Below, piece by piece: positions 8,644 to 60,017 of a stretch of 64,000 bases of DNA. Position 1 is the stretch's first letter; each line of letters opens with the position of its first letter. A program made the translations under genes and the position numbers. Source of the stretch: Bradyrhizobium sp. NP1 (lineage in GTDB: Bacteria; Pseudomonadota; Alphaproteobacteria; Rhizobiales; Xanthobacteraceae). The stretch spans positions 5,558,001 through 5,622,000 of the forward strand of contig NZ_CP127385.1 in NCBI RefSeq assembly GCF_030378205.1, in the 5' to 3' direction. The notes beneath the pieces were generated by a model. The model did not search any database, was not told the origin of the DNA, and saw only the letters and a program-made list of their open reading frames with translations.

Positions 8644-8660
8644 AAGCTTGGCAATCCTCT

Positions 8661-48171: not shown

Positions 48172-48627
48172 CTAGCGCGGCACCACGGCGGTGGCCTCGA
48201 TTTCAAGGCGGGCCGCCTTTTCGACCAGCCGGACGACCTGGACCAGCGCCATGGCCGGATAGTGCGCGCCAAGGATTTCGCGATAGATCGCGCCGAGTTC
48301 TTTCAGGTTCGCCAGATATTCATCCATATCGACGACATACCAGGTGAGCCGAACCAGGTGCTGTGACCCTGCGCCACCCTCGGCGAGAATGGCCACGATG
48401 TTGGACAGCGCCTGACGGGCCTGCGCCAGAAAGCCGGAGGCCAGGCGCTCCTGCGCGTCCCAGCCGATGACGCCGCCGGTCACCACGATGCGGCCGTCCG
48501 CCGCCATGCCATTGGCATAGCCTTTCGGTGCCGGCCAGCCGCTCGGCTGCAGGACTCGCGGTGCGTCGTTTTCGGCCGCCCGCACGGCGAGCCCGGACGC
48601 GTCAGCGCTATTCACTGAATACTCCAT
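48172..48627 (-). CDS. RidA/YjgF-family protein without the catalytic arginine
   Basis: 151 aa with an N-terminal extension of about 25 residues before the RidA core: VTGGVIGWDAQERLASGFLA, LVRLTWYVVDMDEYLANLKE, and YPAMALVQVVRLVEKAARLE. In imine-hydrolysing RidA, the PARS segment gives the essential arginine; here it reads PAMA, so 2-iminoacid hydrolysis is unlikely. RidA-like proteins recur in 2-aminobenzoate and other aryl-CoA clusters. It starts directly after the CoA-ligase stop (48627/48628), in one operon with it. Confidence 0.88.
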   Translation of the reverse strand: MEYSVNSADASGLAVRAAENDAPRVLQPSGWPAPKGYANGMAADGRIVVTGGVIGWDAQERLASGFLAQARQALSNIVAILAEGGAGSQHLVRLTWYVVDMDEYLANLKELGAIYREILGAHYPAMALVQVVRLVEKAARLEIEATAVVPR

Positions 48628-50307
48628 TCATTCGGCGGCGACGCCGGTCGAGGCCGAGCCCGCCTGTGCCATCTGCCGCAAGGCGTACCGCTTCAGCTTG
48701 CCGGTCTCGGTCTTGGGGAGTTGCGCGACGAACTCCATCGCGCGTGGATATTTATAAGGTGCGATCGTCTGCTTGACATGATCCTGCAACGCCAGGACCG
48801 TTGCGGCATCACCCGTCACGCCGGCAGCCAGCACCACATAGGCCTTGACGACCATGCCGCGCGCCTCGTCCGGCGCGCCGACGACACCGCATTCGGCCAC
48901 GGCGGGATGCGACAGCAGCGCAGCCTCGACTTCGGGGCCGGCGATGTTGTAGCCGGAGGAGATGATCATGTCGTCGGAGCGCGCGACAAAGGAGAAGCGG
49001 CCGTCTTCATCCTGCACGAACGTATCGCCAGTCAGATTCCAGCCATCGCGAGCATAGTTGGTCTGCCTGCCGTCCGCCAGATAACGGCATCCGGTCGGCC
49101 CGCGTACCGCGAGCTTGCCAGGCGCGCCGGCCGGCAGTTCCTTCATCCCGTCATCGACGATCCTGGCCTCATAGCCCGTGACTGGATATCCCGTCTTTCC
49201 ACCGACGGCATTGCCCTGCCGATTGCTGATGAAGATATGCAGCAGTTCGGTGCTGCCGATGCCGTCCAGGATCGGTTTGCCGGTCTTGGCTGTCCAGCTT
49301 TCGAACACCGGCGCAGGAAGTGTTTCGCCGGCCGATACCGCAAGGCGCAGCGACGATAGATCGGCGCCGTTGTCCATCGCCGCCATCATCGCCCGATAGG
49401 CCGTGGGCGAGGTGAAGCAGACCGTCGCCTTGTAGGTCTCGATGATCTTGACCATCTCGCTCGGAGCAGCGTTCTCGAGCAACGTCGCCGTGGCGCCGAA
49501 GCGCAACGGAAAGATCGCCAGGCCCCCGAGCCCGAACGTGAACGCCAGCGGCGGAGAGCCGACGAAGACGTCGTCGGGGATGACCTTGAGCACCTCTTTC
49601 GCATAACCGTCCGCGATGATCAGCAGATCGCGATGGAAATGCATCGTCGCCTTCGGCTCGCCCGTGGTCCCTGACGTGAAACCCAGCAGGGCCACATCGT
49701 CGCGGCCGGTCTTCACCGCATCGAACCGGACCGGCTTGTTGAGCGCGACCCGATCGAGCTCCGCGTCATGGTTCGACGTTCCGTCGAAATTCACGACCTG
49801 CTTGAGGAAGCGGCTGGTCTTGGCGCAAGCGACCAGTTCATCGGCGATCCGGCTGTCGGTCAGCGCCAGCGCAATCTCGGCCTTGTCGACGATTCTGGTC
49901 AGTTCGCCGGCGCGCAGCATCGGCATGGTGTTGACGACGACAGCACCGGCCTTGGTTGCCGCAAGCCAGGCTGCGACGAGCGCGGGGTTGTTGCCGGAGC
50001 GGATCAGGACGCGATTGCCGGGCTTGACCCCGTAATTCTCGACCAGAGCATGCGCAAGACGGCTGGACCAGTCCGCGAGTTCCTTGTAGGTGCGCTGGCG
50101 GCCGTTACCGATCAGCGCGGTGCGGTCGCCAAATCCCTTCTCCACCAGCCGGTCGGTCAGCTCGACCGCAACGTTGAGATATTCGGGGTATTGAAACTCC
50201 GGCCGATCAAGCAGCAAGTCCGGCCACTGTTCGAACGGCGGAAGATTTCGCCGCGTGAAATCGTCAACATGGCCTGACGGGCCGAGGTTCGGATTTCTTC
50301 CTGACAT
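48628..50307 (-). CDS. Benzoate-CoA ligase family enzyme, probably 2-aminobenzoate-CoA ligase
   Basis: 559 aa. ANL adenylation motifs: LLGFTSGTTGEPKATMHFHR (P-loop, about 200-219), GIGSTELLHIF, DDMIISSGYNIAGPEVEAAL hinge and C-domain, and catalytic lysine in PKTETGKLKRYAL. The N-terminus SGHVDDFTRRNLPPFEQWPD and PEYLNVAVELTDR are those of Bradyrhizobium 2-aminobenzoate-CoA ligases as I remember; benzoate-CoA ligase is the close alternative. It would activate anthranilate with ATP and CoA. The start at 50307 has GAGGGG upstream; the 47-residue longer frame contains the operator region. A candidate MarR site lies 77 bp before the start. Confidence 0.9.
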   Translation of the reverse strand: MSGRNPNLGPSGHVDDFTRRNLPPFEQWPDLLLDRPEFQYPEYLNVAVELTDRLVEKGFGDRTALIGNGRQRTYKELADWSSRLAHALVENYGVKPGNRVLIRSGNNPALVAAWLAATKAGAVVVNTMPMLRAGELTRIVDKAEIALALTDSRIADELVACAKTSRFLKQVVNFDGTSNHDAELDRVALNKPVRFDAVKTGRDDVALLGFTSGTTGEPKATMHFHRDLLIIADGYAKEVLKVIPDDVFVGSPPLAFTFGLGGLAIFPLRFGATATLLENAAPSEMVKIIETYKATVCFTSPTAYRAMMAAMDNGADLSSLRLAVSAGETLPAPVFESWTAKTGKPILDGIGSTELLHIFISNRQGNAVGGKTGYPVTGYEARIVDDGMKELPAGAPGKLAVRGPTGCRYLADGRQTNYARDGWNLTGDTFVQDEDGRFSFVARSDDMIISSGYNIAGPEVEAALLSHPAVAECGVVGAPDEARGMVVKAYVVLAAGVTGDAATVLALQDHVKQTIAPYKYPRAMEFVAQLPKTETGKLKRYALRQMAQAGSASTGVAAE

Positions 50308-50383: not shown

Positions 50384-50401
50384 CATTTTATACTTAAAAT
50401 A
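50384..50401 (-). promoter_or_regulatory. Candidate MarR operator A
   Basis: Minus-strand TATTTTAAGTATAAAATG, an imperfect palindrome, the reference copy for six related sites. It precedes the CoA-ligase gene. Confidence 0.65.
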
Positions 50402-50453
50402 TCTGGACGCAAGAGCCCCGAATCCGGGTGATCTCGTGCTTTTTTCAAAACGC

Positions 50454-51278
50454 CTAGCGTCCGGCGAGTTGCTTCAGCCGCGCCACCATGGGCGACGCAG
50501 GGTCGGCCAAGGGGGCGATCGCGGTGAAATGGTTCGCATCGGCGATGGTGTCGAACCGGGTGGCAATGTCAGCCACGCCCCATTGCTCGACGATGGCACG
50601 GCTCTGGCGGAAATATTCGGCGCTTTCGTTACCGCCCACGAGCGCATCGAGGCTGCCATGCTCAGGCGGGTGCCAGAACAACGGGCTTGCAGCCCTCGCC
50701 GAATCCGGATCAAGCCGCAAGGCGTTGTTCAGCGAAGTCTCGATCAGCGGCGCCAGATCGAACAAGCCGGAGATCGTATACGCAGCCACAACGAGGTCGT
50801 TCGGCAAGGATGGATCGAGCGCCCGCCAATCCGTCGCAAGCAGGCAGGCGGCAAGGTGGCCGCCGGCGGAGTGACCACTCGCCACCAGCGGACGACCGAA
50901 CCGCGCCAGCGCGCGGGCCGCGGTACCCATCTCGCCGACGATCTCAGCGACCGTCACCCGGGGACACAGATCATAGGTCGGGACTGCGACGTCGATGCCA
51001 TGGGCGTTCAGCCCGCGCGCGCAGTGGCTGAAGGACGAGCCATCCAGCGCCTGCCAGTAGCCACCGTGAATGAAAACGACGATCGGCCCATCGCCGTCGC
51101 CGGCAAAGAGATCGATCGTTTGGCGTTGGCCCGCGCCGTAGGCGATCGATTGCGGCGGACGTTGCATGCGGTAGGCCGCCGCGTCGCGCGCCCAACCCGC
51201 CATCAGGGCCGGATGTTCCGGCACCCGCGCCCGGTTGTTGTACTCGACCTCGTAGTCGATGCCGGGCACGGCGATCAC
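50454..51278 (-). CDS. Alpha/beta-hydrolase, arylformamidase (kynurenine formamidase) type
   Basis: 274 aa from a GTG that overlaps the MarR stop (GTGA). HGGYW at 71-75 is the oxyanion motif of arylformamidases, the nucleophile S137 is in GHSAG, and D/H of the triad are probable in DIATRFDTIADANHFTAI. Arylformamidases turn N-formylkynurenine into kynurenine, a precursor of anthranilate, which fits the neighbouring 2-aminobenzoate-CoA ligase; carbamate or ester hydrolases of the same fold are alternatives. Co-transcribed with the MarR regulator. Confidence 0.85.
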   Translation of the reverse strand: MIAVPGIDYEVEYNNRARVPEHPALMAGWARDAAAYRMQRPPQSIAYGAGQRQTIDLFAGDGDGPIVVFIHGGYWQALDGSSFSHCARGLNAHGIDVAVPTYDLCPRVTVAEIVGEMGTAARALARFGRPLVASGHSAGGHLAACLLATDWRALDPSLPNDLVVAAYTISGLFDLAPLIETSLNNALRLDPDSARAASPLFWHPPEHGSLDALVGGNESAEYFRQSRAIVEQWGVADIATRFDTIADANHFTAIAPLADPASPMVARLKQLAGR

Positions 51279-51769
51279 GTCGCCCGCCGGCCGGCAGCCT
51301 TCTGTGCCGATCCCTTGGCCTTGGCCAGAAGCCGCATCAAGTCGCGCACGTCTTTCGGCGTCAACTCGGCGAAAATATCGGCAATCCAGGTCTCGTGCTC
51401 GGCCGCCATCTTTCGAAATTCGGACCGGCCCGCCTTGGTCAGGCGGATGACCTGGACCCGACGATCGGAGTCCGAAGTTCGGCGGTCGAGATGGCCGGAT
51501 TCGACAAGTCGCTCCACCAATCCTGTCACGTTGCCGTTGGAAACCATCATCCGCTTGGAAACGTCCGACAGCGTCATGCCGTCGGGTGCCCGATCGAGCT
51601 GCGCCATCAGGTCGAAGCGCGGCAGCGTGACATCGAACCGCTCGCGCAGCCGGCTGCGGACAGTTCCCTCGATCAGCGTCGTGCAGGTGAGAAGGCGCAG
51701 CCACAGGCGCAGCTCGTTGCCATGGTCTTCCGGAAGCTCGACGGCCTTGGTCTCGGAATCAAGCATCAT
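51275..51769 (-). CDS. MarR-family transcriptional regulator
   Basis: 164 aa. The winged helix covers about 45-115: FDLMAQLDRAPDGMTLSDVS, RMMVSNGNVTGLVERLVESG (recognition helix), then wing RRTSDSDRRVQVIRLTKAG. The dimerising helices flank it. The start at ATG 51767-51769 is preferred (GGA at seven bases); a TTG at 51781 would add four residues. MarR proteins of aromatic-acid clusters often release DNA when an aryl-CoA thioester binds. It has a candidate operator 53 bp upstream, and five similar sites lie at other promoters of the island, so it probably regulates the whole set and itself. Confidence 0.9.
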   Translation of the reverse strand: MMLDSETKAVELPEDHGNELRLWLRLLTCTTLIEGTVRSRLRERFDVTLPRFDLMAQLDRAPDGMTLSDVSKRMMVSNGNVTGLVERLVESGHLDRRTSDSDRRVQVIRLTKAGRSEFRKMAAEHETWIADIFAELTPKDVRDLMRLLAKAKGSAQKAAGRRAT

Positions 51770-51821
51770 GGTGCAATCCAACCCGCCAGCCTCGCCGCTC
51801 GCAAGCCTCGCGTCGGCTCAT

Positions 51822-51839
51822 CATTTTGACCTTCAAATA
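51822..51839 (-). promoter_or_regulatory. Candidate MarR operator B
   Basis: Minus-strand TATTTGAAGGTCAAAATG, with the perfect core TTTGA-CCT-TCAAA (plus strand 51825-51837). It lies before the marR-hydrolase operon. Confidence 0.65.
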
Positions 51840-51898
51840 ATTCGGGCGGCACTGCAAGTCAAAGTAGAAGACATCGTGATGCCCGCGGTTTTCGGATT

Positions 51899-51916
51899 TT
51901 CTTTAAGCTTCAAGTA
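51899..51916 (+). promoter_or_regulatory. Candidate MarR operator C
   Basis: TTCTTTAAGCTTCAAGTA, 136 bp before the solute-binding protein start, in the divergent region with site B. Matches site A at 12 of 18 positions. Confidence 0.5.
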
Positions 51917-52051
51917 ATTGGCGCGCCGCTTGCATGGCAAGGGTCGCGGCGAACACGGCGGACCATCGGTTCGCTTGCAGCACTGGTCTGCATCAGCATA
52001 AGCTTGAACCCACGGCATGGCGGCGGCGCGCGGCCGATCGAGGGAAACGAG

Positions 52052-53227
52052 ATGAAGCAGAAGTGGTGTTGGGCTGGGCTGGCGGCTTTGTTGGGCATGA
52101 CCATCCACCCCGCGGTCGCGCAGGAAAAAATCAAGATCGGAGTGATCCTGACGCTGTCGGGCCCGGCGGCCGTGCTGGGACAGCAGGCACGCGACGGTTT
52201 CGCGCTCGCGGTCAAGGATCTTGGCGGCAAGCTAGGCGGACGGGATGTCGAAGTCGTCGTGGCTGACGACGAGCTGAAGCCTGATGCCGCCGTGACCAAG
52301 GTCAGGGGGTTACTCGAGCGCGACAAGGTGGATTTCGTGGTCGGCCCGATCTTTTCCAACATCCTGCTGGCGATACACAAGCCCGTCACCGACACCAAGA
52401 CGTTCCTGATCAGCCCGAACGCCGGCCCGTCAAGCTATGCCGGCAAGGAATGCAACCCGTTCTTCTACGTGACGTCCTACCAAAACGACCAGGTGCACGA
52501 GATCCTTGGCAAGGTGGCGCAGGAGCGCGGCTACAAGCGCGTCTATGTGCTGGTGCCGAACTATCAGGCTGGACGGGACTCGGTTGCAGGCTTCAAGCTC
52601 GACTACAATGGCGAGATCGTCGAGGAATCCTACATGCCGCTGAACACGCTGGACTTCCAGCCGGAGCTCTCGAAAATCGCCTCGCTCAATCCGGACGCCG
52701 TCTTCACCTTCATGCCGGGCGGCATGGGCGTCAACCTGGTCAAGCAGTACAAGCAGGCGGGGCTCGCCGAGCGGATTCCCTTCCTGTCGGCCTTCACCGT
52801 CGATGAATCGACACTGCCGGCGCAGCAGGACGCGGCGGTTGGCATGTTTGGCGGCGCCGACTGGGCCCCCGATCTCGACAACCCGCCGAGCCGAAAATTC
52901 GTCGCAGCCTATGAAGCGGCTTACAACAGCGTGCCCGGCACCTATGCCATGCAGGCGTACGACGCCGCCCTCCTGATCGACAGCGCGGTGAAAGCCGTGA
53001 AAGGCGATCTCGGCAACAAGACGGCCGTGGCGGCCGCATTGAAGAAGGCCGACTTCACGTCGTTGCGTGGGAAGTTCAGGATCAACACCAATGGCTACCC
53101 GATTCAGGATTTCTACCTGACAAAAGTCGCCAAGCGGCCGGACGGCAAATTCCAGACCGAGATCGTGCAGAAGGTATTCGAGAACTATGGCGATCGCTAC
53201 GCCAAGGATTGCGCGCCGGCCAACTGA
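52052..53227 (+). CDS. ABC solute-binding protein, LivK type (aromatic-acid-like)
   Basis: 391 aa from the ATG at 52052 behind GAGGGAAACGAG. Signal peptide MKQKWCWAGLAALLGMTIHP with AVA, then QEKIKIGVILTLSGPAAVLG. Type 1 fold with DELKPDAAVTKVRGLLERDK and ISPNAGPSSYAGKECNPFFY, as in proteins of aromatic-compound systems (4-hydroxybenzoate, anthranilate) of Bradyrhizobium and Rhodopseudomonas. No membrane or ATPase genes are beside it; it may use one of the two Liv-type systems at 30-40 kb or others. Divergent from marR; followed by the cupin gene at 36 bp. Confidence 0.9.
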   Translation: MKQKWCWAGLAALLGMTIHPAVAQEKIKIGVILTLSGPAAVLGQQARDGFALAVKDLGGKLGGRDVEVVVADDELKPDAAVTKVRGLLERDKVDFVVGPIFSNILLAIHKPVTDTKTFLISPNAGPSSYAGKECNPFFYVTSYQNDQVHEILGKVAQERGYKRVYVLVPNYQAGRDSVAGFKLDYNGEIVEESYMPLNTLDFQPELSKIASLNPDAVFTFMPGGMGVNLVKQYKQAGLAERIPFLSAFTVDESTLPAQQDAAVGMFGGADWAPDLDNPPSRKFVAAYEAAYNSVPGTYAMQAYDAALLIDSAVKAVKGDLGNKTAVAAALKKADFTSLRGKFRINTNGYPIQDFYLTKVAKRPDGKFQTEIVQKVFENYGDRYAKDCAPAN

Positions 53228-53263
53228 GCGCCGGCCAACTCAATGCAGGGAGGAAACGAAGCC

Positions 53264-53716
53264 ATGAAAGCAGAGGTCGCTGGCATTACGCGCGCCAATG
53301 AAGGCATCCAGGGTATTACCTGGAACATTCTCGGCCAGACCTACGTGCCGAAGAGTAGAACCGAACATTCCTTTTCCTGGCACGCGACGTTTCCGCCCGG
53401 CACCTTCGTGCCGCCGCACATCCATCCCGACCAGGACGAATATCTCTACATCCTCGAGGGTCGGCTCGACTTCATGCTCGACGGCGCCGACGAGTTCGCG
53501 ACCGCCGGCGACACGGTGCGGCTGCCGATGGGCAAGCCGCACGGCATCTTCAACAAATCCCAGCAGAACGCCAAGACATTGTTCTGGGTGTCGCCGACGC
53601 GCAGGCTCTACGACCTGTTCTGGGCCATTCACAATATGAAACAGCAAAACCCGGACGACGTGGTCAAGCTCGCTGCCGAGCACAACATCCACTTCCTGCC
53701 GCCACCGCCCGCCTAG
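53264..53716 (+). CDS. Cupin-domain protein
   Basis: 150 aa from ATG 53264 (GGGAGGA before it; ATG 53243 would add seven residues). One conserved beta-barrel: TFPPGTFVPPHIHPDQDEYL holds the first motif with H, H and E metal ligands, and MGKPHGIFNKSQQ the second histidine. Single-domain cupins bind Fe or Mn and act as dioxygenases, isomerases or binding proteins; the substrate here is likely an intermediate of the aryl-CoA island, but this is only from context. Confidence 0.87.
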   Translation: MKAEVAGITRANEGIQGITWNILGQTYVPKSRTEHSFSWHATFPPGTFVPPHIHPDQDEYLYILEGRLDFMLDGADEFATAGDTVRLPMGKPHGIFNKSQQNAKTLFWVSPTRRLYDLFWAIHNMKQQNPDDVVKLAAEHNIHFLPPPPA

Positions 53717-53726
53717 CAGCCGTTGA

Positions 53727-54971
53727 TCAGGATTGCCGCGCCACCACGCGGGCGGCAAAGCCGGCCTTGGCGGCATAGCCACGCACGATTGCCTCGCGCG
53801 CCTCGTAGCTCAGGATGGTGTCGATATCGGTGAATCCCTGCGGCGCAAGCTGCTCGACTGCGTCGATCACGCCCTCGGGGCCGCCGCGGCGGTTCGATGC
53901 GACGATATCGGCGGTCATTGGCAGGCGCTGGCGCTCATAGGCCTGCAACGACTGGCGCGGATGCTCCGAGCGCGCCAGCGCGTCGGCGAGGCATCGGGCA
54001 TCAAGGATCGCCTGTGACGCGCCATTAGAGCCCACCGGGTACATCGGATGCGCAGCGTCACCAAGCAGCGTGACGCGGCCACTCGACCAATAGGGCAGCG
54101 GATCGCGGTCGCAGCACGGATATTCCCAGAACTCGGGGGTGGCCCGGATCAGGCTCGCGAAATCGACCTGCGGGATCGAGAAGCCCGCGACGTGCGGCAT
54201 CAGTTCTTCCGGCTTGCCAAGCCTCGACCAATCCTCGCGCCGCGGCGGCGGGGTTGAGCCATCGCCAATCCGGACCAGCACCGCCCAATTGGTCAGGCGG
54301 CTTGCCGGGCTCGAACCCTCCGCGATCGGATAGACCACCGCCTTGGCATTCAGGCCGCCCGCGATGATCATCGAACGGCCGGTGAGGAATGCCGGCCAGT
54401 CCGCCGCACCACGCCACAGCATCAAGCCGTTCCAGCACGGCGGTCCCTCCTCCGGAAACAGTGCCTGCCGCACCTTGGAGTGGATGCCGTCGGCGCCGAT
54501 CAGAATGTCGCCGCGCGCGGTATGCGTGTGCGCGCCGCTGCGGTCGAAGAAATAGGCGGTGACGCCACCCTCGTCCTGGCTGAACGCCCCTAACCGGCAA
54601 CCGGTATGAATGGCGTCCGCCCCGAGCTGCGCGACTACCGCTTCGTGAATGATGCCCTGCAGGCGGCCGCGATGGATGGAGAATTGTGGCACCTCGTGCC
54701 CAGCATCAAGACCGCGCTTTTCGTGCCAAACCTGCTGGCCGTGCCGCGTCAGATAAAACAGCTCGCCGGTGCGGATCGCGACCTCGTCGAGCCGATCCAG
54801 GAGGCCGAGGCCGGCAAGCTCGCGGATCGCGTGCGGAAGCGTGTTGATGCCGACACCAAGTTCGCGGATCGTATCCGCCTGTTCGTACAGCTCGCAATCG
54901 ATGCGGCGCGCACGCAACATCAGCGCAGTGGTCAGGCCACCGACGCCGCCGCCGACGATTATCGCCTTCAT
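53727..54971 (-). CDS. FAD-dependent aromatic monooxygenase (group A hydroxylase)
   Basis: 414 aa. GGGVGGLTTALMLRARRI (7-24) binds ADP of FAD, GADGIHSKVRQALFPE holds the DG motif, and GRVTLLGDAAHPMYPVGSNG the GD motif, as in 3-hydroxybenzoate, salicylate or 6-hydroxynicotinate hydroxylases. It would insert oxygen using NAD(P)H. Its stop is 10 bp from the convergent cupin gene. Upstream (54972-55190) lies the strongest palindrome of the MarR set, so it is a single-gene unit under that control. The exact ring substrate cannot be deduced. Confidence 0.9.
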   Translation of the reverse strand: MKAIIVGGGVGGLTTALMLRARRIDCELYEQADTIRELGVGINTLPHAIRELAGLGLLDRLDEVAIRTGELFYLTRHGQQVWHEKRGLDAGHEVPQFSIHRGRLQGIIHEAVVAQLGADAIHTGCRLGAFSQDEGGVTAYFFDRSGAHTHTARGDILIGADGIHSKVRQALFPEEGPPCWNGLMLWRGAADWPAFLTGRSMIIAGGLNAKAVVYPIAEGSSPASRLTNWAVLVRIGDGSTPPPRREDWSRLGKPEELMPHVAGFSIPQVDFASLIRATPEFWEYPCCDRDPLPYWSSGRVTLLGDAAHPMYPVGSNGASQAILDARCLADALARSEHPRQSLQAYERQRLPMTADIVASNRRGGPEGVIDAVEQLAPQGFTDIDTILSYEAREAIVRGYAAKAGFAARVVARQS

Positions 54972-55135
54972 CGCCCTCTACTCCGCAAACGCAACGCTAC
55001 CGCCCAGCGTCGCATGAGCCGTCGCTCCGCGGCAAGCGGCTTCGTCGCTTCAACCTTGAGCTGGGTGCGGGTTTTCTCCACCTGTCCATATGAAGCCTCC
55101 ACCGACACGCTTCTTCCGGCGATCGGAGCAGCAGA

Positions 55136-55153
55136 TACTTTAAATCTAAAATA
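55136..55153 (-). promoter_or_regulatory. Candidate MarR operator D (in a 28-bp palindrome)
   Basis: Minus-strand TATTTTAGATTTAAAGTA, inside the larger inverted repeat with arms GCAGATA (55131-55137) and TATCTGC (55152-55158). CAGATATTTTA is shared exactly with site A. It precedes the FAD monooxygenase gene. Confidence 0.65.
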
Positions 55154-55190
55154 TCTGCTGACAAGTCTCCGCCGAACGGGGACCGGCGGC

Positions 55191-56026
55191 TCAATTGCCC
55201 TGGAAGGACGGCTTCACCTTGTTGGAGAAGGCGATAAAGGCACGCTCGAAATCGGCCGTTGTCATGCAGAGCGCCTGCGCCACGGCTTCGGCCTCGATCG
55301 CCTCTTCCACCGACATCGCCCATTCCATCGCCAGCATGCGCTTGGTCATCGTGTTGGCGAAATTCGGTCCTTCTGCCACCTGCCGCGCCAGGCCCTGGGC
55401 CTGCGTCAACACATGCTCGGGCGTCACGATCCGGCTGAAGAAGCCCCAGCGCTCGCCCTCCTCCGCGGTCATGAAGCGCCCGGTATAGAGCAACTCCGAC
55501 GCCCGCGATTGCCCAATGATGCGTGGCAGGATCGCGCAGGCACCCATGTCGCAGCCCGCCAGTCCCACCTTGTTGAACAGGAAGGCGACCTTGGCGCCGG
55601 TCGCTGCCAGACGCATGTCCGACGCCATCGCGACGATGGCGCCAGCGCCGGCGCAAATCCCTTCGACGGCCGCGACGATCGGCTGCGGGCACGCCCGCAT
55701 CGCCTTGACGAGATCGCCGGTCATGCGCGTGAAGCCGTCAGCCCCTTGGTGTCCATCTTCACGAGCGGACCGATGATCTCAAACACGTCTCCACCAGAGG
55801 AAAAATTGCCGCCTGCGCCGGTCACCACGATGGCCTTGACTTCGTCGTCGAACGCACAGGCACGGAAGAGGTCGGTCAGTTCGCGGTAGCTATCGAAGGT
55901 GAGCGGATTCTTGCGCTCGGGGCGATTGAGCGTCACGGTTGCCACGCCCTCAGTCACCGCCAGCAGGAAGTGCTCGGGCGAATAGTCCGCTAGCGGCAAG
56001 GTCACGGGATTGGCTGGTCTGCTCAT
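55191..56026 (-). pseudogene. Crotonase gene split in two by a 1-bp frameshift
   Basis: Two halves of one enoyl-CoA hydratase family protein in different frames. Part 1 (55721-56026, 101 codons) runs MSRPANPVTLPLADYSPEHF to [20 protein letters not shown] and then [13 protein letters not shown]. Part 2 (55191-55724, 177 codons) begins [20 protein letters not shown] and contains [19 protein letters not shown] and [19 protein letters not shown]. One missing base near 55731 would restore ...[12 protein letters not shown]. The stop of part 1 and the ATG of part 2 overlap as ATGA, so both halves might still be made and could assemble. A sequencing error is the other explanation. RBS AGGAAA stands before part 1. 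Confidence 0.85.
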
Positions 56027-56070
56027 CTCACTTTTCCTCGCACAATTGTCGTGATCGCGTTGCGATGCCT

Positions 56071-56208
56071 TCAAACCTCGCCGCCGGCAACCGCGACGGC
56101 CTGGCCGGTGATCGCCCCTGCATTCTCTCCACATAGCCACGGCACGGCGTCGGCCACCTCGGCTGGCGTCACGGACCTCCCCAGTGGCTTCATCGGCGTC
56201 GGCCCGGA
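56071..56208 (-). pseudogene. 3' remnant of a short-chain dehydrogenase gene
   Basis: Too short to be an independent gene, this minus-strand frame reads [20 protein letters not shown], then [20 protein letters not shown] and GGEV-stop, which is the standard C-terminal 45 residues of FabG-like SDRs. The rest of the gene is absent: upstream the frame meets a TAA at 56215-56217 and then operator E and the divergent hydrolase gene. It points to a deletion or rearrangement that removed the 5' part. It lies 44 bp upstream of the split crotonase, where an intact SDR would be expected in an aryl-CoA operon. Confidence 0.8.
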
Positions 56209-56210
56209 TA

Positions 56211-56228
56211 TATTTTATACTTGAAGCT
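56211..56228 (-). promoter_or_regulatory. Candidate MarR operator E
   Basis: Minus-strand AGCTTCAAGTATAAAATA; shares AAGTATAAAAT exactly with site A. Confidence 0.6.
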
Positions 56229-56291
56229 CTTGCAAGAAATGCGCGACGACCGCATTGCACGGCAAGGGAGGAGACGAAAACCCGGCCGAAT

Positions 56292-56309
56292 TGCTTTAAA
56301 CATAAAGTT
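56292..56309 (+). promoter_or_regulatory. Candidate MarR operator F
   Basis: TGCTTTAAACATAAAGTT with the perfect inverted repeat CTTTA-AACA-TAAAG (56294-56307), 50 bp before the hydrolase start. Confidence 0.55.
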
Positions 56310-56358: not shown

Positions 56359-57189
56359 ATGGGAGACATTTGCGTGCCTGCTTCGACGCCGAAGAAGACC
56401 GGAAACGGACGCTTCGCCTACGAGGCCGCGGGCGATCCCGGCAAACGGACGTTGGTCTTTCTTCACGGCATTGGCGGAGCAGCCCGGGCGTGGCGCGGCC
56501 AACTGGACGCTTTCGGCGATCGCTACCATACCGTTGCCTGGGATATGCCGGGTTATGGCGGCTCAGCGCCGCTCGCGCGCGTGAGCATCATGACGCTCGC
56601 CGACGCACTGCAGGATTTTCTGCGGCAGATCGGATCTACGAAGCCAATCCTGGTCGGGCACTCGATCGGCGGCATGATCGTGCAGCAATGGCTGACGCAG
56701 AATCCGCAGGGCTCCGCGGCTGTCGTCCTGGCTCAGACAAGTCCCGCCTTCGGCCGGGCTGACGGCGAATGGCAGAAGCAGTTCATCGACGCTCGGCTGG
56801 GCCCGCTCGATCGCGGCGAGTCGCTGGCTTCGCTGGCGCCGAAGCTGGTCGCCGAACTGATCGGCGATGACGCGGAAGCCGCCGGCCTTGCGGTTGCCCG
56901 CGACTGCATGGCGAACGTTCCCGAAGCAAGCTATCGCGCGTCCATGCTGGCCCTGCTTGGGTTTGATCTGCGGCACGCGCTGAAGGACATTCGGGTGCCG
57001 ACCCTGCTGCTGTCGGGCTCGAGAGACAAGAACGCGCCCGCCCCCATGATGGCCAAGATGGCGACCTACATCCCTTCCGCAGAATATGTCGAGCTTGACG
57101 GCGTCGGCCATCTCGTCAATCTCGAGCGGCCCCGAGCGTTCAATACGGCGATCGACCAATTCCTGAAGACCATCGCGGTGACAGCGTAG
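56359..57189 (+). CDS. Alpha/beta-hydrolase, first gene of a five-gene acyl-CoA operon
   Basis: 276 aa from ATG 56359; upstream in-frame starts to 56221 overlap the operators and are unlikely. HGIGGAARAWRGQLDAFGDR carries the oxyanion histidine-glycine, the nucleophile is in GHSIGGMIVQQWL, the acid in LLSGSRDKNAP and the histidine in ELDGVGHLVNLERP. It resembles ring-opening or ester hydrolases such as 3-oxoadipate enol-lactonase and N-formylmaleamate deformylase; substrate unknown. Its stop directly abuts the acyl-CoA dehydrogenase ATG. Confidence 0.88.
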   Translation: MGDICVPASTPKKTGNGRFAYEAAGDPGKRTLVFLHGIGGAARAWRGQLDAFGDRYHTVAWDMPGYGGSAPLARVSIMTLADALQDFLRQIGSTKPILVGHSIGGMIVQQWLTQNPQGSAAVVLAQTSPAFGRADGEWQKQFIDARLGPLDRGESLASLAPKLVAELIGDDAEAAGLAVARDCMANVPEASYRASMLALLGFDLRHALKDIRVPTLLLSGSRDKNAPAPMMAKMATYIPSAEYVELDGVGHLVNLERPRAFNTAIDQFLKTIAVTA

Positions 57190-58479
57190 ATGACGGCGCA
57201 GATCAAAAGCACCATGACCGCGGCAGGCAACACCGCGCTGGACGCACCGATCTTCGATCCCGAAGCTTTTCGCCTCAACGCCGAGCAGGCAGCAATCATT
57301 GCGCGCGCCCGGGAGCTTGGCCAAACCATATTTGCGGGCCGCGCAGCGGCCTACGACCGCGACGCCACGTTTCCTACCGAGAACTACAGGGATCTCCACC
57401 GCGCAGGTCTGCTCGGTATTTCGATCCCATCCAAGCATGGCGGTCTCGGCGCCAACTATCAGACCTATTCGCTGGCGGCCGCCGAGATCGGCCGTTACTG
57501 CGGTGCCACCGCGCTGACCTGGAACATGCACGTCTGTTCCACTCTGTGGTCCGGCCCGCTCGCCGACGATCTCGACATGGACGTGACGACCCGCGCCGAG
57601 CATGAGCGGCGCCGGGCGGTCCACTACAAACGCATCGTTGATGACGGCGCCATCTACTCGCAACCGTTTTCGGAAGGTGGCGCGGCCGCCGCCGGCGGCG
57701 TCGCCTTCGGGACCGAGGCGAAGCCTGTCGCCGGCGGCTGGATCGTCAACGGCAAGAAGATATTTGCATCGCTCTCGGGGCATGCCGACTATTACGGTGT
57801 GCTCTGTACCGAAATCGTCGAAGGCGAGAAAGTCTCTCGGCGCAACACGCTCTATCTTGCGATGCCCGCAAAAGCCGACGGTGTCTCCGTGGTCGGCGAT
57901 TGGGATCCTCTGGGCATGCGTGGGACTGTGTCCCGGACGCTGCTGTTCAAGGATGTGTTTGTAGCGGAGGATGCGGCGCTCATGCCGCGCGGGGTCTATT
58001 TCCAGGCCGCGCAGCGCTGGCCGCATATGTTCCTGACGCTGTCGCCGACTTATATGGGCCTTGCCCAGGCGGCCTATGACTTCACAGTGCGGTATCTGCG
58101 TGGTGAAATTCCCGGCACGCCGCCAGCGAAGCGGCGGATGTATCCCACCAAGCAGATCGCGGTCGCCCAGATGCAGATCAAGCTCGAGCAGATCAAGGCG
58201 ATCTGGTTTCAGGCGGTCTCCGAGGCGCGCGCCAATCCCACCAAGGAGCAGGTGCTGCGGGCCTATGCGGCGCAATACTCCGTCATGGAAGGCGCCAACG
58301 AACTTGCGGCGCTCGCGATACGAACCTGCGGCGGACAGGCGATGTTGAAATCGCTGCCGCTGGAAAGGATCTATCGCGACAGCCGCTGCGGCTCGCTGAT
58401 GCTGCCGTGGACAGCCGAGCTCTGTCTCGACCGCATCGGTCGCGAGGCACTGTATGAGCCCGGTGAAACGGATGACTGA
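57190..58479 (+). CDS. Acyl-CoA dehydrogenase family protein
   Basis: 429 aa. N-terminal helical domain (about 25-140, GLLGISIPSKHGGLGANYQT and IGRYCGATALTWNMHVCSTL), beta domain (about 155-270, QPFSEGGAAAAGGVAFGTEA, VNGKKIFASLSGHADYYGVL, WDPLGMRGTVSRTLLFKDVF) and C-terminal helices with YSVMEGANELAALAIRTCGG and RCGSLMLPWTAELCLDRIGR. The usual YEGT-type segment that provides the catalytic glutamate is not clear, so oxidase or monooxygenase-like flavin chemistry on a CoA thioester or other substrate cannot be excluded. Second gene of the operon. Confidence 0.88.
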   Translation: MTAQIKSTMTAAGNTALDAPIFDPEAFRLNAEQAAIIARARELGQTIFAGRAAAYDRDATFPTENYRDLHRAGLLGISIPSKHGGLGANYQTYSLAAAEIGRYCGATALTWNMHVCSTLWSGPLADDLDMDVTTRAEHERRRAVHYKRIVDDGAIYSQPFSEGGAAAAGGVAFGTEAKPVAGGWIVNGKKIFASLSGHADYYGVLCTEIVEGEKVSRRNTLYLAMPAKADGVSVVGDWDPLGMRGTVSRTLLFKDVFVAEDAALMPRGVYFQAAQRWPHMFLTLSPTYMGLAQAAYDFTVRYLRGEIPGTPPAKRRMYPTKQIAVAQMQIKLEQIKAIWFQAVSEARANPTKEQVLRAYAAQYSVMEGANELAALAIRTCGGQAMLKSLPLERIYRDSRCGSLMLPWTAELCLDRIGREALYEPGETDD

Positions 58480-58481
58480 CG

Positions 58482-60017
58482 GTGGACCTCTCCAGTCTGA
58501 TCGCGCGCAATGCCGCCTTTGCCCCGAATAAGCCTGCCCTTCGTTTTGAAGGCACCACGCTGAGCTATGCTGCGTTTGCAGCGCGCATCGAGCAAACCGC
58601 GCGGGCGTTGCAATATGAACTTGGCGTCGGCCGTGGCGATCGCGTCGCAATCCTGAGTCTCAATCGGCCCGACTATCTGACGCTGCTCTACGCATGCGCG
58701 CGACTGGGCGCCATTCTGGTGCCGTTGAACTGGCGTCTTGCCGTCACTGAGCAGTCCTTCATCCTGTCCGATGCCGCCATCAAGGTGCTTGTACTCGAGC
58801 GGGCCTTCGCTGCGGTCGTTCCCGTCCTGGAGCAGAGCCTGCCGAACACAGCCATTGTGGGCCTTGATTTCTCGCCCGGGAAAGGCGTCGCATTCGAACG
58901 GCTGCTCGAAGAAGGCTCCGGTGGCCTCGGCACTGCCCGTGCAGATCTCTCCTGCCCTCTTCTGATCGTCTACACATCTGGCACGACCGGGCGACCGAAG
59001 GGCGCGGTACTTCTGCAGGAAGCCCTGTTGTGGAATGGCGTGATGAGCCAGCACATGCACGGCCTGACCTCCGACGACCACATATTGACCGTGCTGCCCT
59101 TCTTCCATGTCGGCGGACTGAATATTCAGACCACGCCGGCACTGCATCATGGGGCGACCGTCACCATTCATTCGCGGTTCACGCCTGAGGCGACACTTGC
59201 CGCGATCGCGCGGGACCGGCCCACCCTGACCGTCCTCGTTCCCGCGACCATTCAGGCGATCACGGAGCATCCCGAATGGCTAACGAGCGACCTGTCATCG
59301 CTGCGAGCGGTCGCAACCGGCTCGACCATCGTTCCGCAACCCCTGATCGATCGCATCACGACGCGCGGCGTGCCCGTGCTGCAGGTCTACGGCTCGACCG
59401 AGACCTGCCCAATCGCAGTCTACACGCGCATTGGTGGGGACCCGGAGCGAGAAGGATCGACCGGTCTGCCCGGCCTGTGCTGCGAAGCGGCCGTTGTCGA
59501 CGACGCCGGCAACGAGGTGCCGTCGGGCACGGTCGGTGAGATCGTGGTGCGCGGTCCCAACGTCTTCGTCCAGTATTGGAGAAATGAGGGCGCGACGCGC
59601 GAAGCATTGCAGGACGGTTGGTACAGGACGGGCGATATCGCCGTGCGGGATATCGACGGCTTTTTCTGGGTGCGCGACCGCAAGAAGAACCTGGTCATCT
59701 CCGGTGGCGAGAACATCTATCCGGCCGAGGTCGAGCGCGTGTTGCAGGAGCATCCGGATGTTGCCGAATGCGCCGTCATCGGCCGCGACGATCCGCGTTG
59801 GCAAGAGGTCCCGGTCGCCTACGTGATCCGCAGGAACGGCCACCATCAGGCCGAGGCTGATGACCTGAAAGCTCACGTGCAGGCACAACTCGCGCGCTTC
59901 AAGGTGCCACGCGAGATCATCTTCGTTGCAGACCTGCCGCGAACCGCGCTCGGCAAGGTCCAGCACTTCAAGCTGAAGCAACTCGACGCTGAAATGGTTC
60001 GGGGAGGCAATTCGTGA
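58482..60017 (+). CDS. AMP-forming acyl-CoA ligase (ANL family)
   Basis: 511 aa from a GTG start (GGATG upstream, 2 bp after the dehydrogenase stop). Motifs: VYTSGTTGRPKGAVLLQEA (P-loop), VYGSTETCPI, DGWYRTGDIAVRDIDGFFWV, RDRKKNLVISGGENIYPAEV and catalytic lysine in PRTALGKVQHFKL. It resembles medium/long-chain and substituted-acid ligases more than the benzoate-CoA type at 48628. It should activate the acid that the neighbouring dehydrogenases oxidise. Overlaps the next gene by GTGA. Confidence 0.9.
   Translation: MDLSSLIARNAAFAPNKPALRFEGTTLSYAAFAARIEQTARALQYELGVGRGDRVAILSLNRPDYLTLLYACARLGAILVPLNWRLAVTEQSFILSDAAIKVLVLERAFAAVVPVLEQSLPNTAIVGLDFSPGKGVAFERLLEEGSGGLGTARADLSCPLLIVYTSGTTGRPKGAVLLQEALLWNGVMSQHMHGLTSDDHILTVLPFFHVGGLNIQTTPALHHGATVTIHSRFTPEATLAAIARDRPTLTVLVPATIQAITEHPEWLTSDLSSLRAVATGSTIVPQPLIDRITTRGVPVLQVYGSTETCPIAVYTRIGGDPEREGSTGLPGLCCEAAVVDDAGNEVPSGTVGEIVVRGPNVFVQYWRNEGATREALQDGWYRTGDIAVRDIDGFFWVRDRKKNLVISGGENIYPAEVERVLQEHPDVAECAVIGRDDPRWQEVPVAYVIRRNGHHQAEADDLKAHVQAQLARFKVPREIIFVADLPRTALGKVQHFKLKQLDAEMVRGGNS

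Follow-up and report, generated by a model that had tools for sequence, protein, structure and literature searches.

A conserved set of predicted palindromic operators and a predicted MarR regulon in a partly decayed aryl-CoA gene cluster of Bradyrhizobium sp. NP1

Which protein reads six related palindromes that stand among the genes of a putative aryl-coenzyme A (aryl-CoA) catabolic cluster, and what keeps them there when some of the enzymes they stood before appear to be gone? The question arises in a 64,000-nucleotide stretch of DNA (the window; positions 5,558,001 to 5,622,000 of contig NZ_CP127385.1; G+C 64%) from Bradyrhizobium sp. NP1, whose genome is a single contig of 7.71 Mb. A first-pass annotation had proposed that the six sites, named A to F, mark the regulon of a MarR-family protein encoded in their midst (51275-51769, minus strand). 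A MarR regulon across this island is supported by the analysis given here, since the sites are conserved in all 38 of the relatives' loci that were tallied and are confined to promoter positions. We predict with high confidence a conserved operator set together with its regulon. Such a system is ordinary in kind; what is unusual is that the operators seem to have persisted after core enzymes decayed.

The six palindromic sites and their conservation

All six 18-mers are present in the window. Site A (50384-50401, minus strand) is the predicted operator of a CoA-ligase/RidA operon. Sites B (51822-51839, minus strand) and C (51899-51916, no strand assigned) are predicted marR-proximal and binding-protein-proximal operators in the gap between these divergent genes. 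Site D (55136-55153, minus strand), also a predicted operator, lies in relatives before the gene for a ring monooxygenase, the 2-aminobenzoyl/salicylyl-CoA monooxygenase-reductase (ABMR). Site E (56211-56228, minus strand) is the predicted operator of an SDR/crotonase operon, and F (56292-56309, plus strand) that facing an alpha/beta-hydrolase operon. The strings reported as common to pairs of sites (CAGATATTTTA in A and D, AAGTATAAAAT in A and E) were recovered, as were the perfect inverted repeats TTTGA-N3-TCAAA in B, centred half a base off the centre of the 18-mer, and CTTTA-N4-TAAAG in F. The predicted operator is an 18-bp palindrome with the consensus TATTTTAAGCTTAAAATA and the half-site TATTTTAAG.

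Sites were scored in bits with a palindromic weight matrix trained on A-F (the window matrix). Among all positions of the window, A-F occupy ranks 1-6 at 21.7-30.2 bits (A, 29.9; B, 21.7; C, 25.9; D, 30.2; E, 23.4; F, 26.2). When each is scored with a matrix built without it, every one still lies above all non-members, the narrowest margins being 21.0 versus 19.6 bits for C and 20.1 versus 19.1 for E. The best outsider is always position 8660, which scores 17.9 bits with the full window matrix and 10.1 with a second matrix made from 78 relatives' sites, themselves selected with the window-trained matrix. This look-alike has an aminotransferase-like gene on one side and a GntR-like gene on the other, and may belong to the GntR protein. 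One hundred first-order-Markov copies of the window contain no position of at least 20 bits and 12 in total of at least 15 bits, versus 6 and 7, respectively, in the real window. AT content is no explanation for six sites in 6 kb, because random 50%-GC DNA contains only 29 sites of at least 20 bits from AT content alone in 6.4 Mb.

Since A-F had been picked for their likeness to one another, the independent test lies in the relatives, and lack of conservation in related clusters had been set beforehand as one of three results that would refute the proposal. The first set of relatives comprises about 15 kb around the MarR gene (less at contig ends) in each of 39 further genomes, which were hand-picked among the matches. 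Its tally covers 38 loci (L041-L078) at a site threshold of at least 15 bits, and excludes a paralogous locus (L079; three sites of at least 15 bits) and a distant one (L080; one site). These 38 loci contain 138 sites, with at least one in every locus, and none of the 138 lies deep in an annotated gene, a category that takes up about 39% of the bases. Upstream sites, counted when no more than 320 bp 5' of a gene (genes less than 320 bases from a locus end being excluded), precede the ABMR gene in 32/32 cases (the counterpart of D), the substrate-binding-protein gene in 23/24 (C) and the hydrolase gene in 11/11 (F). The SDR gene, which follows the counterpart of E, has one in 15/28, or in 26/28 when overlap between the site and the annotated 5' end is allowed. 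Site A likewise has counterparts, with an upstream site at 21/35 ligase genes, and B has them in part of the relatives (marR, 26/38); the figure for the cupin gene is 5/25. Genes inside operons have none: flavin monooxygenase (0/21), RidA (0/22), Hyd1 (0/10), acyl-CoA dehydrogenase (0/11) and second ligase (0/11). For crotonase, the first piece has an upstream site in 1/34 and the second piece in 0/35.

A second set, the best 80 of 579 loci from one scan of a genome collection, partly repeats the same genomes and takes in Microvirga, Caulobacter and other Alphaproteobacteria with rearranged clusters. A site of at least 20 bits is present in 79 of these 80 loci (298 such sites); the sole exception is L226, whose MarR gene starts 171 bases from the locus end. 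In the rearranged clusters the sites travel with the genes, mostly before those for the binding protein, the SDR and the monooxygenase. Control loci totalling 211 kb contain no site of at least 15 bits. Within the site, column identity is 0.92 for the ligase class (17 distinct stretches), 0.89 for the monooxygenase class (17) and 0.84 for the SDR class (15), figures that are somewhat inflated because sites were picked by score; in the flanks it is 0.68-0.77 over the 15 upstream bases, which include a TTGC block, 0.51-0.54 over the 15 downstream bases and 0.43-0.55 beyond.

The element had also been thought rare, and no copy had been noticed elsewhere in the window. Within the window no outsider outscores A-F, but look-alikes do occur outside the island. 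In the genome as a whole, strong matches are indeed rare: the 7.7 Mb contain four exact copies of the core AYTTTANNNNTNAART, those of A and D and two beside a paralogous MarR gene at 1.869 Mb. Only strong matches are informative, because once a mismatch is allowed the pattern yields 49 rows and its reversed control 44, so that weak matches carry no signal. With the relatives' matrix, applied to the stretches around pattern matches, nine sites reach at least 20 bits (A-F, two at the paralogue and one at 801,106) and the next scores 14.1. An 18-position model built on sequence alone from these 78 sites gives four places at E <= 10: 801,105, C, D and A.

Of the operator-like sites found in the genome, the strongest, 801,105 (L116 position 2106), belongs to an unlinked locus, a feature that is new here. 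It lies between the gene for a binding protein (45% identical to that of the window) and permease genes of a branched-chain-type ABC importer. Chance, or a gain specific to the strain or lineage, would account for it, because 29 permease loci from other genomes of the genus contain no site of at least 12 bits (the comparison covers 30 loci, its own included, returned for 59 matched genomes). In three of the 29, the permease has that binding protein, or the tail of it, as its neighbour.

Promoter placement and the proposed regulator

Read towards the gene, site A presents TTGCGT, 16 bases and TAAAAT, with the right half of the site overlapping this -10-like box. Site D similarly presents TTGTCA, 16 bases and TAAAGT, and the operator spans both the spacer and the -10-like box. 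A promoter scan of the region gave a match at D (55164-55137); this is the only operator site that passes, the boxes of A falling below listing strength. Since only D passes and two matches were found where 1.1 were expected, better promoter support comes from the TTGC block that is conserved at this distance at the ligase and monooxygenase promoters of relatives. Blocking of RNA polymerase is likely because at these two promoters the site covers the -10-like box behind the conserved TTGC, and polymerase exclusion is the simplest reading of the overlap. Unlike at these promoters, the -10 boxes at the SDR and binding-protein promoters are ambiguous. The sites thus stand, as the first-pass annotation had it, at promoters of island genes, with two amendments: the first gene behind D, the ring monooxygenase, appears to be lost, and E stands at an SDR remnant. 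D now adjoins the flavin monooxygenase gene because of this loss; in relatives the flavin monooxygenase gene lies behind the ring-monooxygenase gene on the same strand.

The protein encoded at 51275-51769 passes the cut-offs of PF12802 (45.3 bits versus 27) and PF01047. Its structure model is of the winged-helix type, with a helix at residues 78-90 and wing strands (mean predicted local distance difference test score, 77.5; predicted template modelling score, 0.63), and a Foldseek search with this model returned many MarR proteins among the best 50 matches, several of them with DNA. A palindrome of 16-20 bp near the regulator's own gene and its targets, a trait of the MarR family, is indicated here by the presence and conservation of the sites. 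Homologues, paralogues included, were found in 147/296 genomes of the bacterial family (E <= 1e-20).

We consider it highly probable that A-F are operators of this MarR, which would repress the genes and be released by a compound of the pathway; we infer both that this protein is the binder and that it represses rather than activates. A MarR dimer would bind the 18-bp palindrome. Bound before the ligase and monooxygenase genes, the dimer would lie across the spacer between the -35 and -10 elements and across the -10-like box, keeping transcription off, and through B and C it would control its own gene and that of the binding protein. Release would most likely be brought about by the aryl-CoA made by the ligase (2-aminobenzoyl-CoA, salicylyl-CoA or a relative), although this effector is a guess by pathway and by analogy with the regulators BadR and CouR.

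Several observations weigh against this assignment. Loci L208 and L214 have no site of at least 15 bits before the monooxygenase gene. In the first set, 12/38 loci have no site by marR and 14/35 none by the ligase. In a distant set of 19 loci (no more than 3.5 kb each) from a phylum-wide sample, in which 72/398 genomes have a MarR match, 11 contain a site of at least 15 bits and 8 do not. In the genome scan with the 18-position model, B, E, F and the paralogue's sites miss E 10. Counts from relatives are also not independent events, because many relatives are close kin and the second set partly repeats genomes of the first. Finally, a second MarR could be the binder at some of the sites.

It is this second MarR, encoded at 1,869,255-1,869,713 of the genome, that provides the alternative we regard as possible: the sites would be its operators, or those of both proteins, in one network over two catabolic clusters. 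The paralogue is 50% identical to the window MarR, their recognition-helix regions are similar, and sites of 23-24 bits lie beside its gene. Elsewhere, six of nine hand-picked paralogue loci carry sites of 29-32.6 bits, two of which are one base from site A; three paralogue-like loci (L288-L290) have no site. Across genera, however, the motif appears to follow the window-type MarR. A role for MarR as an activator or dual regulator is unlikely. Site C does lie away from any obvious -10 box, and BadR is entered as R/A in a table of a review (PMC10458429), but at A, D and their counterparts the site covers or sits between boxes of the -35/-10 type, a position in which a bound protein should obstruct polymerase. 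That the palindromes are general AT-rich promoter elements, or elements resembling integration host factor sites, is largely refuted and scarcely credible despite their AT-rich sequence and overlap with -10-like boxes, given the empty control loci, the resampled windows devoid of 20-bit sites and the four exact cores in the genome.

Genes of the cluster and their decay

The genes point to aerobic 2-aminobenzoyl-/salicylyl-CoA catabolism, the substrate probably being anthranilate or a relative. Behind site A lie a benzoate/anthranilate-type CoA ligase gene (48628-50307, minus strand), whose product scores 368.7 bits with TIGR02262, just below the cut-off of 375.25, and a gene for a RidA-family protein (48172-48627, minus strand; PF01042). 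The best solved relative of the ligase is the anthranilate-CoA ligase 4wv3, and its sequence suggests an aryl-CoA ligase. By sequence comparison, an alpha/beta hydrolase distantly resembling kynurenine formamidase is encoded at 50454-51302 (minus strand), overlapping the end of marR. Across the divergent gap lie the ABC substrate-binding-protein gene (52052-53227, plus strand; PF13458) and, directly after it, a cupin gene (53264-53716, plus strand; PF07883); the same arrangement occurs in the same-genus loci L041-L052, and in L053 permease and ATPase genes intervene. A PRK07538-like flavin adenine dinucleotide (FAD) monooxygenase gene follows (53727-54971, minus strand; NF005720, 564.5 bits versus a cut-off of 400). 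Downstream of F, a run on the plus strand encodes an alpha/beta hydrolase (56359-57189, its start codon read from the sequence), an acyl-CoA dehydrogenase family protein (57190-58479) and a second acyl-CoA ligase (58482-60017), the last two assigned by sequence comparison.

Between these genes, three core genes of the window copy (55025-56190) appear to have decayed while the operators and neighbouring frames persist, a feature that is new here. A frame at about 55025-55075 (minus strand; coordinates counted by hand) resembles the C-terminus of the L042 monooxygenase-reductase and is a putative scar of the lost ABMR gene; the L042 protein has no tblastn match in the window's cluster. The crotonase gene (55191-56026, minus strand) has a one-base frameshift, and an SDR 3' remnant (56074-56190, minus strand) has 77% identity to the L042 SDR. 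The nucleotide alignment of the scars is too gappy to bound the deletions. In L042, whose cluster also has a CoA ligase, the run behind the counterpart of D starts with a bifunctional salicylyl-CoA 5-hydroxylase/oxidoreductase gene (NF006101, 1138 bits versus a cut-off of 1078) followed by the flavin monooxygenase gene, and SDR and crotonase genes lie behind the counterpart of E. In Bradyrhizobium sp. OK095 (L202), both a monooxygenase match and a site at that position are missing, perhaps by independent loss.

Also new here, a second cluster of the host genome, that with the paralogous MarR (L079, genome 1,859,255-1,879,000), has similar sites and looks intact, with genes for a ligase, MarR, a monooxygenase that matches NF006101, an SDR, a crotonase, two dehydrogenases and RidA. 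This paralogous module may serve the window's cluster. Such a module can be exchanged, since in L051 the monooxygenase, SDR, crotonase and RidA genes within this cluster are paralogue-like (52-61% to the references) and stand under a site of 32.6 bits.

Relation to known regulators and significance

BadR of Rhodopseudomonas palustris and Aromatoleum sp. CIB acts on the cyclohexane carboxylate pathway through the operator CAAN4TTG (PMC9795900). Like BadR, which is released by a pathway acyl-CoA, the window MarR is proposed to be a repressor with promoter operators in a CoA-thioester catabolic cluster. Unlike for BadR, CAAN4TTG is present in 0/6 of the 18-mers and, with 8-bp flanks, in 1/6 (site C). 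Site C reads into this sequence at 51899-51926, as do 11/23 of the nearest binding-protein sites in relatives, perhaps by chance. CouR of Rhodococcus jostii RHA1 (PMC4737184) has the operator cATTGA-N5-TCAATg, which overlaps a -35 box, and p-coumaroyl-CoA as effector. The two systems are alike in having a MarR repressor (here proposed) and inverted repeats that overlap promoter boxes; they differ in that ATTGA-N5-TCAAT is found in 0/6 sites with 8-bp flanks, and CouR belongs to another pathway and phylum. Among the papers listed in searches of the open-licence literature of PubMed Central, none was on a MarR operator for a salicylyl/2-aminobenzoyl-CoA cluster. The text of a regulon survey (PMC5343134) contains no anthranilate or benzoate term, and that of PMC10005059 has "marrow" and enzyme names only.

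The nearest relative met in a characterised locus type is IadR2 (MarR_50 or MarR_Bj2) of the iad auxin loci, for which neither ligand nor DNA site is identified in PMC9613470; the best PDB sequence match of both proteins is 3boq. Two Bradyrhizobium iad loci (L275, L276) were recognized, each with a neighbour that matches the solved IadR 7kym strongly and over its full length (333 and 343 bits over 160 residues) and, by Pfam domains, with TPP-enzyme and POR-domain (IorAB-like) genes; L275 also has genes for Rieske alpha/beta, a ligase, an SDR and a binding protein. The name IadR2 is given here to the MarR that adjoins iadR on account of that position. Given this kinship, and iad pathways that end in anthranilate (PMC9613470), the window MarR might be IadR2 and the cluster one for indole-3-acetic acid catabolism, but this is not supported and very improbable: in both loci the putative IadR2, next to iadR and IorAB-like genes, differs from the window MarR (that of L275 shares 39% identity with it over 112 amino acids), the motif is absent from L275 and L276 (best scores, 11.9 and -0.7 bits), and no IadR was found in the host genome at E 1e-15 in a search made without a positive control. 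Three other loci were considered as iad loci and set aside: that of G542 (MarR, formamidase-like hydrolase and binding protein), with no Rieske or IorAB-like domain in 10 scanned proteins; L261, with none in 8; and the Rieske locus of G737 (L273, L274), which has no MarR of this clade.

A more far-reaching reading, which we consider rather unlikely, would join these observations: the two MarRs would share one operator and join the loci at 5.61, 1.87 and 0.80 Mb in a single regulon; the core genes for ring cleavage in the window would have decayed because the paralogous module supplies their function in trans; the operators would have been kept and a new one gained at the unlinked ABC importer; and the clade, IadR2 included, would sense anthraniloyl-type CoA thioesters. 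If true, such sensing would explain why no ligand of IadR2 has been identified.

The highly probable assignment of A-F to the window MarR yields a predicted regulon, with its operator sequence, for a clade whose homologues, paralogues included, occur in roughly half of the family genomes sampled and which is linked to the aerobic breakdown of aryl-CoA by soil bacteria and bacteria associated with roots. A testable guess at the ligand class of IadR2, the second MarR of the auxin loci, comes with it, and the cluster would be a case in which operators have outlasted the enzyme genes behind them.

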